Origin: Lysobacterales bacterium
GTDB taxonomy: Bacteria > Pseudomonadota > Gammaproteobacteria > Xanthomonadales > Marinicellaceae
Direction of reading: 5' to 3'
NCBI GenBank assembly: GCA_027067055.1
Contig: JAMOMK010000080.1
Span: 1 to 35,839 of the forward strand
DNA: 35,839 nucleotides
Part shown: positions 1 through 9,878 of the stretch, in pieces
How the letters are laid out: the number at the start of each line of letters is the position of its first letter
How positions within the stretch are numbered: position 1 is the stretch's first letter
Made by a program: the position numbers and the translations under genes
The notes under the pieces: model-generated
Database searches by the model: none
The model's input: only the letters and a program-made list of their open reading frames with translations
Told to the model about the DNA's origin: nothing

Positions 1-232
1 GATAGCAGGCATTCATATTAGAATACAAGGTATTATCAGAACAGTTTTCAGCAAGTTGGAAATATTGAGATTTTAACTAAAAACCATGTCAAGAAATATC
101 TTTTATATTCGCTGAATAGTTACGATTAAAGTATCTATCCGCTTGTTCTACACCCCATTTGTGATAGCCGTAAGAATAAATTTGTCGCAAATCTTCTTTG
201 GCTTCTAAATTAATTTTATAGCTTAATCTCAA
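1..232 (-). pseudogene. Decayed ParE/RelE-family toxin
   Basis: Directly after the ParD-like antitoxin on the minus strand, a reading frame opening at a TTG (230-232, inside the antitoxin 3' end) reads MRLSYKINLEAKEDLRQIYS, then continues to KWGVEQADRYF. These are the N-terminal beta strand and first helices typical of ParE toxins. The frame then meets TGA at 89-91 and TAG shortly after. Still in the same frame, it resumes with text resembling the middle of ParE (YFQLAEN) before running off the window. Active toxins of this family have about 95-100 residues; only 47 codons are open here. I infer an inactivated toxin with its antitoxin retained. The left end is cut by the window, so the C-terminus cannot be judged. 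Confidence 0.6.
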
Positions 233-467
233 TACCTAAATCCTTTTTAAATTCTGACAAAATATCAGCTTGTCCTTGTGTAGTAAAGCCATTTTTTTCA
301 GCTTGTATCAGTTTTGCTCGGATAATATTTAACTTATCTTCTTTAACCCGTGCTTGGCGAATCAAATCGTTAACCAGCTCACTTTTGCTTTTATATTCTT
401 GAGATTCTATTTGGGTGTTTATCCAATTATTATTAGGTTCTGTAAATGAAATACTTTGTCTAGTCAT
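216..467 (-). CDS. ParD-like antitoxin (CopG/ribbon-helix-helix type)
   Basis: This 83-residue protein begins MTRQSISFTEPNNNWINTQI and continues with YKSKSELVNDLIRQAR. That is the N-terminal DNA-binding strand followed by the two helices of ParD/CopG-type antitoxins; the charged C-terminal part normally wraps the toxin. The start at 467 is preferred over an upstream in-frame ATG at 494 because the family begins with this motif; neither has a clear Shine-Dalgarno sequence. It overlaps the start of the toxin frame, the usual ParDE arrangement. Because the toxin looks broken, this antitoxin may now act alone as a repressor or anti-addiction protein, or may itself be decaying. Family assignment is good; function here is inferred. 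Confidence 0.75.
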   Translation of the reverse strand: MTRQSISFTEPNNNWINTQIESQEYKSKSELVNDLIRQARVKEDKLNIIRAKLIQAEKNGFTTQGQADILSEFKKDLGIEIKL

Positions 468-486
468 AATATTAATACTTGTAATG

Positions 487-521
487 TGGTGCAATAATAC
501 ATCATTTCTGCACCATGTGCA
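487..521. promoter_or_regulatory. Possible operator of the parD-like gene
   Basis: Just upstream of the antitoxin start are TGGTGCA (487-493) and TGCACCA (509-515), an inverted pair 15 nt apart. A tighter palindrome, TGCAC-CAT-GTGCA, occupies 509-521. ParD-type proteins autoregulate by binding palindromes at this place, so this is a candidate operator. It rests on symmetry and position only. Confidence 0.3.
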
Positions 522-623: not shown

Positions 624-1352
624 TTATCCCTTTTTCGGGTGGGCAAAATGATAATAGCTATTATTAAGTTGTTGCAAGACTTCTTGATGGGCTTTTAGTC
701 GTGTTGGGTTTAAGCGTTTGCCTTGTAAAGTGATGAGTTGGGTATCTTGATAATCTTGCACTTTGGCAATCAATGTGAAAGTGACGTTATCGGTTTGGAC
801 TTGATAGGATTCTTTGAGGGTGGTTGTTTTGTTCCATCTTTTTTTTAAGTTGTGGGTGATTTGTTGGCTGAGGTATTTTAGGTCTTTGCTGTTGTCAGTT
901 TTGGGAAATAAGGTGGGCAAGAAGTGCTTGAAATAGCCATAGGTTAAGCTTTCACTTAATGGATCGTTTTGGTTTTTGCTTATGCCAATGATGATGCAAT
1001 AACAGGCGAAACAACATTGGTCATAGTCCTGTTGGTTTTCGTGTTTGATGGTAAAGTATTTAAGAGCATTGGCTTTTTCCATGATTTCGATGATGTGGCT
1101 TTTGTTTTTTATCAATAAGCGATAAAGCCGTGATTGACTTTCGGGATGGATGAAGTTTTTATTGATGATGTAGTGGTAAAAGCTGTTGTCAAACTCTGCT
1201 TTGCCGATGACTTGGGTGATTAAGACTCTATCAGGTATTTGTAGTTTGCCTTGTTGGCATTGGATTATGTCTTTGCATATCTTGGTTTTTGCATAGTTGG
1301 CGTTTAAAAATGCTTTGAGTTTGCTGATGATGTGGTTTTGTTTTCTTGCCAT
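624..1352 (-). CDS. Hypothetical protein, 242 aa
   Basis: I do not recognise this protein. It has 242 residues, a basic N-terminus (MARKQNHIISKLKAFL), a Cys-rich hydrophobic patch near the middle (QCCFACYCIIIGI, about residues 112-124) and a Lys/Arg/Gln-rich C-terminal third ending HFAHPKKG. No signal peptide or clear transmembrane helix is visible, and no nuclease, integrase or helix-turn-helix motif is recognised. It starts 36 nt downstream of the CCA end of the odd tRNA gene, on the same strand, and could be cotranscribed with it. The position beside a tRNA and next to a toxin-antitoxin remnant suggests accessory DNA, but this is inference. Confidence 0.6.
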   Translation of the reverse strand: MARKQNHIISKLKAFLNANYAKTKICKDIIQCQQGKLQIPDRVLITQVIGKAEFDNSFYHYIINKNFIHPESQSRLYRLLIKNKSHIIEIMEKANALKYFTIKHENQQDYDQCCFACYCIIIGISKNQNDPLSESLTYGYFKHFLPTLFPKTDNSKDLKYLSQQITHNLKKRWNKTTTLKESYQVQTDNVTFTLIAKVQDYQDTQLITLQGKRLNPTRLKAHQEVLQQLNNSYYHFAHPKKG

Positions 1353-1388: not shown

Positions 1389-1483
1389 TGGAGCGGACGA
1401 CGGGATTTGAACCCGCGCTACTCGGGGGGAAACCCGATAAACAGGTACTGAAAACCTGCGTGCTACCGTTACACTACGTCCGC
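1389..1483 (-). tRNA. Atypical tRNA: Gly-like body, UCA anticodon, extra CCC-containing hairpin
   Basis: On the minus strand the gene runs from GCGGACG (1477-1483) to an encoded CCA (1389-1391). The acceptor is a perfect 7-bp stem (GCGGACG/CGTCCGC) with discriminator U73. The D arm is GTGT-AACGGTA-GCAC and the T arm GCGGG-TTCAAAT-CCCGT. After one junction base comes CAGGT-TTTCAGT-ACCTG, a canonical 5-bp/7-nt anticodon arm whose anticodon is UCA, complementary to UGA. Four bases later a second perfect 5-bp hairpin, TCGGG-TTTCCC-CCCGA, is followed by GTAGC and the T arm. Body, discriminator and first acceptor pairs match bacterial tRNA-Gly. Length (95 nt) and UCA would make software call tRNA-Sec, but Sec features (8-bp acceptor, 6-bp D stem, G73) are absent. 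Intact stems argue against simple decay; charging and decoding are unknown. Confidence 0.85.
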
Positions 1484-1493
1484 TTATGTGCGT

Positions 1494-1499
1494 ATTATA
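1494..1499 (-). promoter_or_regulatory. -10 box of the atypical tRNA gene
   Basis: A perfect TATAAT lies on the minus strand, ten bases before the mature tRNA 5' end at 1483, placing transcription start only a few bases upstream of the tRNA. The region 17 nt further upstream (TCAAAG) is a poor -35 match and overlaps the terminator hairpin, so a partial promoter or an extra activator is possible. Confidence 0.45.
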
Positions 1500-8559: not shown

Positions 8560-9878
8560 TCAGGGATTTTTAAGTACTTTCCTGCACGAATCAAATAGCG
8601 AGGTGCTTTTAAGTGATTTATGCGTGCAATTTCTTTACGGCTTGTACATTTGAATTTTCTTGCTATTTTACCTAAAACATCTCCAGGCTTTACCTTATAT
8701 CGAAAGTAACCTTGGGTTTCTCGAAAGTCGGCATCGTGAAAAGACTTGGCTAATTTCATAAACCCATTGTCTTGACACTTGCTATTAAACACTTCTTCTA
8801 AAACTCCAGGAATACGTAAATCAACATGCGCTTTGATGGTATTGTCAGCTTTAATGCCTGAATTGAGATTGCGCAAAATACGAAACCAACCATCTTGGCG
8901 TTGCTCTTGCCCTAAACATATTGCCAACTCGCTTAATGAAGTTGGTTTAGCTAGGTTTACGGTAATAATGTCGGTATTAATTTTATCCAAGCGTACATTG
9001 AACTTTTGTGGGTCTTGAAAAATCAACATTGCTGCCAACACAACTGGAACATAATGCCGTGTTTCACGAGGCAAGTCGTAATAAAAACCCTTATTCCAAA
9101 ATGGTTTGTTTTTATGTTGTTGGTTTAATCTCTTGAAACGAGTTTCACCAGAGTTATAGGCAGCTAAAACTTTAGCTCTATCACCATCGTATATATTAAG
9201 TTGTTCGTTTATATACCTAGCAGCAGCCTGTGCCGACTTTGCTGGGTTAAAACGCAAATCATAAGCTCCATCTTTGCCAGCCAGCCCTAAACGTCTAGCT
9301 GTTGCTGGCATGAGTTGGAACAGCCCGCCAGCACCTGCTCGCGAGCGTGAGTGCACCCTTCCTCCTGATTCTTGCGCCATAATTGCAAGAACCAAGGCTT
9401 CATCTAATGCATATTTTGCTAAAGCAGGTTTAATTTCTTTTTGTAAAAATTGATAATACTGCCAGGTACTAATCAACTGAGGTCTTTTCCATGTAAGCCA
9501 CTCATTTAATGCACCGCGAATTAATTCATTTTTCATTAGGTTACTTGAGAGGTGAATTTTTTTTATCTTATTGCCATTTTTTGTCAATTCTGATTTATCT
9601 GAAATTAGGCTGCTTTGCTCGTCCGTAACAATTTCGTGTCCATCTGTTAACAACCCTCTTTCTTGCAACCATGAATTAAGCTCAGTATCAAACTCTTTTT
9701 TGCAACTTGCATCTGCATAACATTGTGTCATCCTATCTATTAAAGATATACGAGTAACCGACTCTTCTTGTTTTAGCGTACTTTGTGGTTCAATGACTGC
9801 TGTTTTTTTCTGTTTATTTAAACTTTGGCACGAGATTAAACCCAGCAAAGAAATAACCGTTAATAAAATATTTTTCAT
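8553..9878 (-). CDS. Lytic murein transglycosylase with LysM, MltD-like lipoprotein
   Basis: A 441-residue lipoprotein: signal peptide with lipobox LISC, Cys at position 17. A low-complexity linker precedes the SLT domain at about 150-300, with the catalytic Glu in AIMAQESGG (E170) and the GLFQLMPATARRLG signature. AAYNSGETR and ETRHYVP complete the family 1 lytic transglycosylase core. A single LysM module closes the protein (YKVKPGDVLGKIARKF to LKIPEC). The enzyme cleaves peptidoglycan glycan strands to anhydro-muropeptides at the inner face of the outer membrane. E. coli MltD has more LysM copies, hence MltD-like rather than MltD. Overlaps the glycosyltransferase gene downstream. Confidence 0.92.
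   Translation of the reverse strand: MKNILLTVISLLGLISCQSLNKQKKTAVIEPQSTLKQEESVTRISLIDRMTQCYADASCKKEFDTELNSWLQERGLLTDGHEIVTDEQSSLISDKSELTKNGNKIKKIHLSSNLMKNELIRGALNEWLTWKRPQLISTWQYYQFLQKEIKPALAKYALDEALVLAIMAQESGGRVHSRSRAGAGGLFQLMPATARRLGLAGKDGAYDLRFNPAKSAQAAARYINEQLNIYDGDRAKVLAAYNSGETRFKRLNQQHKNKPFWNKGFYYDLPRETRHYVPVVLAAMLIFQDPQKFNVRLDKINTDIITVNLAKPTSLSELAICLGQEQRQDGWFRILRNLNSGIKADNTIKAHVDLRIPGVLEEVFNSKCQDNGFMKLAKSFHDADFRETQGYFRYKVKPGDVLGKIARKFKCTSRKEIARINHLKAPRYLIRAGKYLKIPEC

Follow-up and report, generated by a model that had tools for sequence, protein, structure and literature searches.

The 35,839-nucleotide stretch of DNA analysed here (hereafter the window) carries a tRNA gene with two anticodon-like arms, and tRNAs of this form were found in four phyla, at most loci beside a gene whose product has a predicted RNase III fold. 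The two-armed structure is confirmed, and the anatomy of this module, its conservation and the linkage of its two genes are matters of observation. At about even confidence, we read the pair as a mobile two-gene module consisting of a glycine-accepting tRNA that decodes UGA and a dsRNA-binding RNase III-fold protein that controls it. Arm 1, which stands at the anticodon-arm position, would read UGA, and arm 2 would present the C35/C36-like bases of the glycine anticodon; together with G1-C72, C2-G71 and U73, these C's would make the tRNA a substrate of glycyl-tRNA synthetase despite A36 in arm 1. The partner protein, dsRNA-binding by its fold and probably catalytically dead, would bind the two-armed tRNA and control its stability or availability, and the free tRNA would insert glycine at UGA. 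The features concerned are as follows.

89-232, minus strand: short ParE-like ORF recognised by eye, which looks truncated near the contig end and has no Pfam match
216-494, minus strand: ParD-type antitoxin gene (PF03693, E 1.2e-6), downstream of the partner gene and outside the module
624-1352, minus strand: partner protein of 242 aa, with predicted RNase III fold and C-terminal dsRBD
1389-1483, minus strand: two-armed tRNA gene of 95 nt with encoded CCA (ARAGORN, Rfam, fold and parse)
1389-1392, minus strand: discriminator U73 and encoded CCA
1422-1437, minus strand: arm 2, TCGGG-TTTCCC-CCCGA, whose loop holds a glycine-type NCC; 5 nt link the hairpin to the T arm
1442-1458, minus strand: arm 1, an anticodon arm of 5 bp and a 7-nt loop, one base from the D stem
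1449-1451, minus strand: anticodon UCA of arm 1, the complement of UGA
1494-1499, minus strand: TATAAT, a -10-like element upstream of the tRNA

The window tRNA is composed, in order, of a 7-bp acceptor stem, a 4-bp D stem, arm 1 (CAGGU-UUUCAGU-ACCUG), the linker UUUA, arm 2 (UCGGG-UUUCCC-CCCGA), the linker GUAGC, a 5-bp T arm, the closing acceptor strand, U73 and CCA. With the Rfam tRNA model it scores 58.9 bits (gathering score 29), the second hairpin being treated as inserted sequence within the variable region. All five stems are present in the minimum-energy fold (-37.6 kcal/mol), and none of 200 shuffled sequences folded equally well (z -4.0). A copy in a congener (G007) is 93% identical, and the gene is conserved in other phyla, so it is more than a chance structure. 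The surroundings of the TATAAT element are common to the window and this congener, with flanks that differ. No second copy of the two-armed tRNA was found in the window with the family model. The initial annotation of this region, made from the sequence alone, had given the gene these coordinates, stems and anticodons and an encoded CCA, all of which were borne out by ARAGORN and the family parse; its arm-2 loop of 6 nt, one base short, and its upstream TATAAT, kept in the congener, likewise held. In its overall interpretation, the anatomy, the tRNA-Gly body and the use of UGA as a stop stood, and to these we add the RNase III-fold neighbour at 624-1352, a tandem UCG form in Bacteroidota and a patchy, module-like distribution.

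The same annotation had named two readings that would overturn it, a normal Sec tRNA and a decaying pseudogene. ARAGORN does label 1389-1483 as tRNA-Sec(UCA). The Secmarker authors state that G73 is essential for tRNA-Sec and that ARAGORN calls of this kind average 20 per genome in their set and are mostly false (PMC5330540). The window tRNA has a 7+5 bp acceptor branch, not the extended 8+5 form, and carries U73 in place of G73; we therefore reject the selenocysteine tRNA of a normal Sec system as extremely improbable. A silent pseudogene with a chance hairpin insertion can point to degenerate copies in L079, in L121 (a weak third copy) and in the Lamellibrachia endosymbiont, but it is contradicted by conservation across phyla, compensatory changes and retention of the partner gene, and we give it next to no credence.

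Relatives were found in several ways. A DNA search covering the window's genome and 60 related ones, 61 in all, gave one clear relative besides the window itself, that in the congener; the third match was a stretch of 29 bases inside an ordinary tRNA cluster. A pattern search of an 84,980-species collection, which required a tRNA-Gly D arm and then UCA at the right place, matched 62 stretches. On inspection, 12 of these, from 10 genomes, were two-armed, and the remaining 50 comprised 39 single-armed tRNAs from Mycoplasma-like bacteria and 11 stretches that were single-armed tRNAs or not tRNAs. Since the pattern fixed UCA, this anticodon is there by construction in the 12 pattern-found tRNAs, and arm 2 lay outside the pattern; UCA is also present in five UCA-type relatives found without it, namely G007 and the loci from protein searches (L117, L118, L119 and L121). 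The parsed family comprises 19 two-armed tRNAs from 15 genomes in Pseudomonadota, Desulfobacterota, Acidobacteriota and Bacteroidota, phyla being assigned by record title or by the order that was searched; many of the carriers are fragmented metagenome bins. Three copies were left out of the parse: L079, which has a 3-nt insertion beside the D arm, the degenerate copy of the Lamellibrachia endosymbiont, and the weak middle copy of L121. This last copy (L121 416-509, 49.3 bits) is tRNA-like and lies between a UCG and a UCA two-armed tRNA, with an arm 1 loop near CUCAGGG and an arm 2 loop CUUCCAA. The 19 tRNAs can be divided into two types, 16 with UCA in arm 1 and a glycine acceptor, and three with UCG in arm 1.

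Arm 1 has a 5-bp stem, a 7-nt loop and U33 in all 19 tRNAs, with one A-C mismatch (L119). The stems of arm 2 are of 4-5 bp, and its loops are of 5 nt in seven tRNAs, 6 nt in seven, 7 nt in four and 8 nt in one. All 13 tRNAs from outside Bacteroidota have arm-2 loops of 5-6 nt; those of the three Bacteroidota loci are of 6-8 nt, and three of the six tRNAs there possess full arms of 5 bp and 7 nt. NCC lies inside the arm-2 loop in every one of the 19, the loops seen being UUUCCC, UUUCCA, UUGCCC, CGCCA, CACCA, CUCCAA, UAUCCAA, CUUCCAG, GCUCCAA, CUUCCAA and CUUCCAAC. The stem pairs of arm 2 vary with pairing kept (the fourth pair from the loop is G-C in nine tRNAs, C-G in seven and A-U in three), although this pairing is partly by construction, because the parsing script picked the best hairpin. 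The initial annotation had suggested a look at related genomes for the same gene, and both hairpins show compensatory changes among the relatives found. The linker from arm 2 to the T stem is of 5 nt in 10 of the 19, 4 nt in seven, and 6 and 3 nt in one each, a length like that of a class I variable region. CCA is encoded in 11 of the 19 tRNAs and is missing in all six from Bacteroidota, in L091 and in L104.

As a control, we parsed 32 distinct Leu, Ser and Tyr tRNAs, taken from the loci already fetched, with a similar script whose limits were slightly wider. In these class II tRNAs the loop of the variable arm is of 3-5 nt in 30 of the 32, the linker to the T stem is of 1-3 nt, and NCC occurs in the variable-arm loop of only one. 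The two-armed tRNAs, with loops of 5-8 nt and linkers of 3-6 nt, do not show this short-loop, short-linker arrangement, although both ranges touch those of a few controls. Judged by NCC, loop and linker, the second hairpin looks like an anticodon arm and not like a class II variable arm. It is improbable, in our judgement, that the gene is an ordinary class II opal suppressor in which arm 2 is a structural variable arm whose NCC was inherited from tRNA-Gly and is read by no enzyme. Infernal and ARAGORN do accommodate it as a tRNA whose variable region is long, and U73 and the acceptor elements alone may permit slow glycylation, with C35 kept by UCA; but such a suppressor does not account for an NCC that persists in 19 of 19 tRNAs while the surrounding stem changes, nor for a loop length and linker unlike those of the 32 controls.

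The regular 5 bp + 7 nt geometry and U33 of arm 1 in all 19 tRNAs, and the arm-2 loops of 5-6 nt outside Bacteroidota, which are probably too short to decode, make arm 1 the likely reader. The converse would be a tRNA-Gly that decodes GGN by arm 2 and in which arm 1 was added for recognition by the partner. Arm 2 is followed by a linker, mostly of 4-5 nt, that does resemble a class I variable region, and in Bacteroidota arm 2 can be a regular arm of 5 bp and 7 nt with UCC (the UCA-type tRNAs of L069 and L121). Nevertheless, the invariant anticodon geometry is kept in arm 1 and not in arm 2, and loops of 5-6 nt are unlikely to present a normal anticodon, so that we regard GGN decoding as very improbable. 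For decoding of UGA in the cell by arm 1 of the two-armed tRNA, these sequence features leave the chances, in our view, evenly balanced.

The glycine side of the proposed tRNA is conserved as well. G1-C72, C2-G71 and U73 are present in 16 of 16 UCA-type tRNAs in the family parse, and the ordinary tRNA that scores best under the family model is a tRNA-Gly in 14 of 14 genomes read, with the fifteenth, G765, outside this count; both results agree with the glycine acceptor elements and tRNA-Gly body proposed initially. Unlike a standard tRNA-Gly, with NCC in the arm after the D stem, these tRNAs have UCA there and NCC in the next arm. Glycyl-tRNA synthetase is reported to read U73, the first two acceptor pairs, C35 and C36, and changes cost 21- to 41-fold at C36 and 105- to 1500-fold at C35 (PMC9976931, PMC9908026). 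UCA keeps C35 and loses C36, so a second loop with CC could restore recognition by the synthetase; an arm-2 loop of 5-6 nt, and its position, may on the other hand not suit the enzyme. Taken together, charging of the two-armed tRNA with glycine appears moderately likely from its sequence.

UGA had been taken for an ordinary stop codon in the window, and this was confirmed, since 4 of the 28 ORFs examined end in TGA; a tRNA reading UGA would thus be a suppressor. Four intact partner ORFs (G007, L118, L105 and L069) also end in TGA, and a genome-wide use of UGA for glycine does not fit these endings. Recoding of the partner gene itself was considered and rejected: no homology continues in frame past the stop, TAA, TAG and TGA stops occur without pattern, and the partner ORFs need no UGA read as glycine.

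The partner gene at 624-1352 lies downstream of the window tRNA, and a protein 53% identical to its product follows the tRNA of the congener. Among the 12 pattern-found stretches, eight adjoin a window-type partner and two, both from Bacteroidota, adjoin an RNase III-like protein, while L071 has a truncated relative of the partner and L079 has no partner. In the reverse direction, partner profiles gave four new loci (L117, L118 and L119 by profile A2, L121 by profile A3), and all four have a two-armed tRNA within 160 nt. In total, the partner or its Bacteroidota counterpart is present in 15 of 17 loci, the window included. The tRNA is upstream on the same strand in nine loci, divergent in five and downstream in one. 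Distances between tRNAs and between partners are correlated (r 0.72 over 12 pairs, permutation p 1e-4; the proteins are incomplete in two of the pairs), as would be expected for a unit inherited together. In the Lamellibrachia endosymbiont there are two tRNA-partner pairs and one partnerless copy. An intact-looking tRNA stands beside a truncated partner in L071 and a frameshifted one in L058, so tolerance of the tRNA does not strictly require the partner, unless the metagenome assemblies are in error. Two of the 15 partner genes, at L058 401-1024 and L064 1377-2364, are split over two frames, where sequencing error, decay or frameshifting may be the cause.

Sequence libraries gave little for the partner. 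For the window and congener proteins the best E-values were 0.09 in Pfam and 0.15 in PHROGs. The window and G007 proteins had no PADLOC match, and a known defence system was rejected for the partner on this ground. In NCBIfam the window protein and four relatives had no relevant match, and the partner of L064 matched RNase III at E 0.016; a sequence search of the PDB with the partner proteins gave nothing relevant. An AlphaFold2 model of the window partner, built from a 12-row alignment (A4), reached pLDDT 88 and pTM 0.64, and is predicted to combine an RNase III domain with a C-terminal dsRBD of alpha-beta-beta-beta-alpha form. Its best Foldseek match in the PDB is the RNase III of Aquifex (E 5e-5), followed by mitoribosomal large-subunit chains (E 5e-4 to 1e-3), which we take to be mL44, and by Dicer and E. 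coli RNase III. The TM-scores against these matches reach only 0.25-0.41, which may reflect a different arrangement of the two domains. The window partner has no detectable sequence similarity to RNase III.

The Bacteroidota partners of L069 and L064 have a match to Ribonucleas_3_3 of Pfam (E 4-6e-4) that falls short of the curated cut-off; their model is poor (pLDDT 63), and its Foldseek matches are RNase III, Dicer and dsRBDs, with a best E of 7e-3. Sequence homology between the two partner types was not detectable (probability 0.1%), and the link that we draw between them rests on predicted fold only. Aligned with E. coli RNase III, all three Bacteroidota partners have lost the catalytic acids, with no acid at the positions of the carboxylates E38, E41, D45, D114 and E117. 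In the window's family, the position of D45 (in a weak alignment) holds K in the window, R in the congener and E in the other six of eight rows, and the second motif does not align confidently with E. coli RNase III. Our best reading of the partner is a nuclease-dead dsRNA-binding protein, which for the window's family is something we infer. We consider binding of the two-armed tRNA by the partner quite probable.

The same evidence bears on a different kind of function. The molecule might be a tRNA-shaped RNA with no role in translation, serving a pseudo-RNase III ribonucleoprotein as scaffold, bait or regulator; it might, for example, divert anticodon nucleases as a decoy or sense damage to tRNAs. 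Such a role is in keeping with an RNase III-fold dsRNA-binding protein linked in 15 of 17 loci, with the patchy distribution and with the toxin-antitoxin neighbours of five loci, and two anticodon loops on a single body would suit a bait. However, U8, U33, the T loop and the glycine acceptor are kept, with CCA encoded in 11 of 19, and the divergent order excludes a purely cis-acting leader in the five loci that have it. The tRNA is also far more conserved than the protein, with median identities of 80% and 30%, as is expected if the tRNA must fit the translation machinery. We consider this explanation unlikely, though it deserves to be weighed.

As for surroundings and spread, toxin-antitoxin genes adjoin five loci. 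The neighbours differ by locus and include HipA with an HTH gene (L058), PIN-domain genes (L064, L069) and, at the broken locus L071, HicA/HicB-type genes with HicA below its cut-off; mobility genes are a tyrosine integrase (L059) and a Y1 transposase (Lamellibrachia endosymbiont). The 20 genes scanned represent 15 of the 17 loci; because several were picked for their resemblance to toxin-antitoxin genes, they say nothing on enrichment.

The tRNA-partner pair is rare. Within the window's order its partner profile was found in 2 of 398 genomes, within two other orders in 3 of 242 and 3 of 195, and the Bacteroidota profile in 2 of 228 genomes, all counts including the genome at the centre of each search. 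When the tRNA model was run over 395 genomes of the class of G1267, two-armed tRNAs were seen in G1267 only, under strict filters that scored 10 candidates in each genome and admitted E-values up to 1e-11; three of the eight other matches were checked, and five were judged by their length of 75 nt. No relatives of the window protein were found in phages or plasmids, none of the L059 and L121 partners in plasmids, and none in viral contigs with the two-sequence profiles A1 and A3, such scans reaching close relatives only. The UCG-type search gave no match in viral contigs, and the eight UCA-pattern matches there were six single-armed tRNAs and two stretches not called as tRNAs. A phage origin was rejected in view of these partner and tRNA scans. 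The scattered occurrence of the pair, its multiple copies and its degenerate remnants point to an accessory role that may be defensive or selfish; a regulated part in stress, defence or addiction is possible, though we hold it doubtful.

The three UCG-type tRNAs occur one per Bacteroidota locus, on the same strand as the UCA-type tRNA and in tandem upstream of it. Their acceptor has A1-U72 and G73. In G1267 the UCG-type tRNA shares its 5' acceptor strand with the native tRNA-Trp and departs from it at a single base of the 3' strand. Of the native tRNAs that were fetched from the three Bacteroidota genomes, a partial set lacking the tRNA-Trp of G764, the two tRNA-Trp are the only ones with A at the first position. 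G73 and A1-U72 are reported to belong to the bacterial identity elements for tryptophan (PMC9976931, PMC12135181). The arm-2 loops of the UCG-type read UCC in the regular register and contain CCA one base on, so that tryptophan is a tentative assignment, and the idea that arm 2 marks tryptophan here as cleanly as NCC marks glycine is weakened. Moreover, the UCG-type keeps UCC without glycine acceptor elements, which implies that arm 2 does not simply stand for glycine everywhere.

These pairs allow a broader, speculative reading that we think improbable as a whole, namely a new principle by which tRNAs split identity and decoding over two anticodon arms and are released by a dead RNase III as the effector of defence or addiction. 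The Bacteroidota pair would then put glycine at UGA (by UCA) and tryptophan at CGA (by UCG), the latter resting on the Trp-like acceptor and on CCA within the arm-2 loop. The dead RNase III would release the mistranslating tRNAs on a signal, for example double-stranded RNA of a phage; faulty proteins would arise in the cell or the phage, and the module's effector would be the tRNA.

In many tRNA families, one anticodon serves both recognition by the synthetase and reading of the codon. In the present module, charging of the tRNA and codon reading may be uncoupled. If true, a natural tRNA that splits the two roles would show how the meaning of a codon may change with the synthetase unaltered and could be put to direct use in codon reassignment; together with its pseudo-RNase III partner it would point to an unknown control of mistranslation.

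We compared the two-armed tRNAs with known systems. They share acceptor elements, D arm, the G49-U65 wobble (16 of the 19) and U73 with ordinary bacterial tRNA-Gly, which has one hairpin where they have two and does not read UCA or UCG in the arm after the D stem. In SR1/Gracilibacteria, UGA is a glycine codon genome-wide and tRNA-Gly(UCA) has one anticodon arm; the glycine body with UCA is common to both, but in the window UGA ends genes, and the tRNA has two anticodon-like arms. In 9/3 tRNAs and allo-tRNAs the acceptor/T branch is changed. The selC* tRNA-Cys and 8/4 tRNAs are likewise non-canonical, some with UCA, and selC* is described with linked protein genes (PMC7609411); as described there they alter the acceptor/T branch, whereas the two-armed tRNA keeps 7/5 and adds a second anticodon-like arm. 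The partner resembles bacterial RNase III and the mitoribosomal RNase III-like protein as its best Foldseek matches, and differs from bacterial RNase III in sequence, in its link to a tRNA gene and, in Bacteroidota, in the missing catalytic acids. "Two anticodon arms" have been claimed for a chloroplast tRNA-Ser(GCU) said to read Ser and stop codons (PMC10228390); by our own reading its second arm is an ordinary class II variable arm, and the part of that paper cited here reports neither a conservation test nor a partner. No description of such two-armed tRNAs was found in the open-access literature searched, where the 8/4-type tRNAs (PMC7609411) and this chloroplast claim (PMC10228390) are the nearest in print.

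Several further observations were made along the way. Six viral contigs (L037, L039, L040, L041, L042 and L044) carry single-armed UCA tRNAs and perhaps belong to phages that read UGA as an amino acid, and a seventh (L043, about 8780-8875) has a tRNA-like stretch with a long insertion in the anticodon region, without an ARAGORN call and outside the two-armed family. Single-armed tRNA-Gly-like UCA genes are present in L057 (Elusimicrobia), L081 (Parachlamydiales) and L088 (Alphaproteobacteria), for which we know of no UGA reassignment. In the congener (L090 1-864, minus strand) the pair adjoins glyQ, recognised by eye as glycyl-tRNA synthetase alpha, an adjacency that is probably chance since it was seen at no other locus. 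Finally, a long near-perfect inverted repeat lies between the partner gene and the tRNA at L118 1394-1457.
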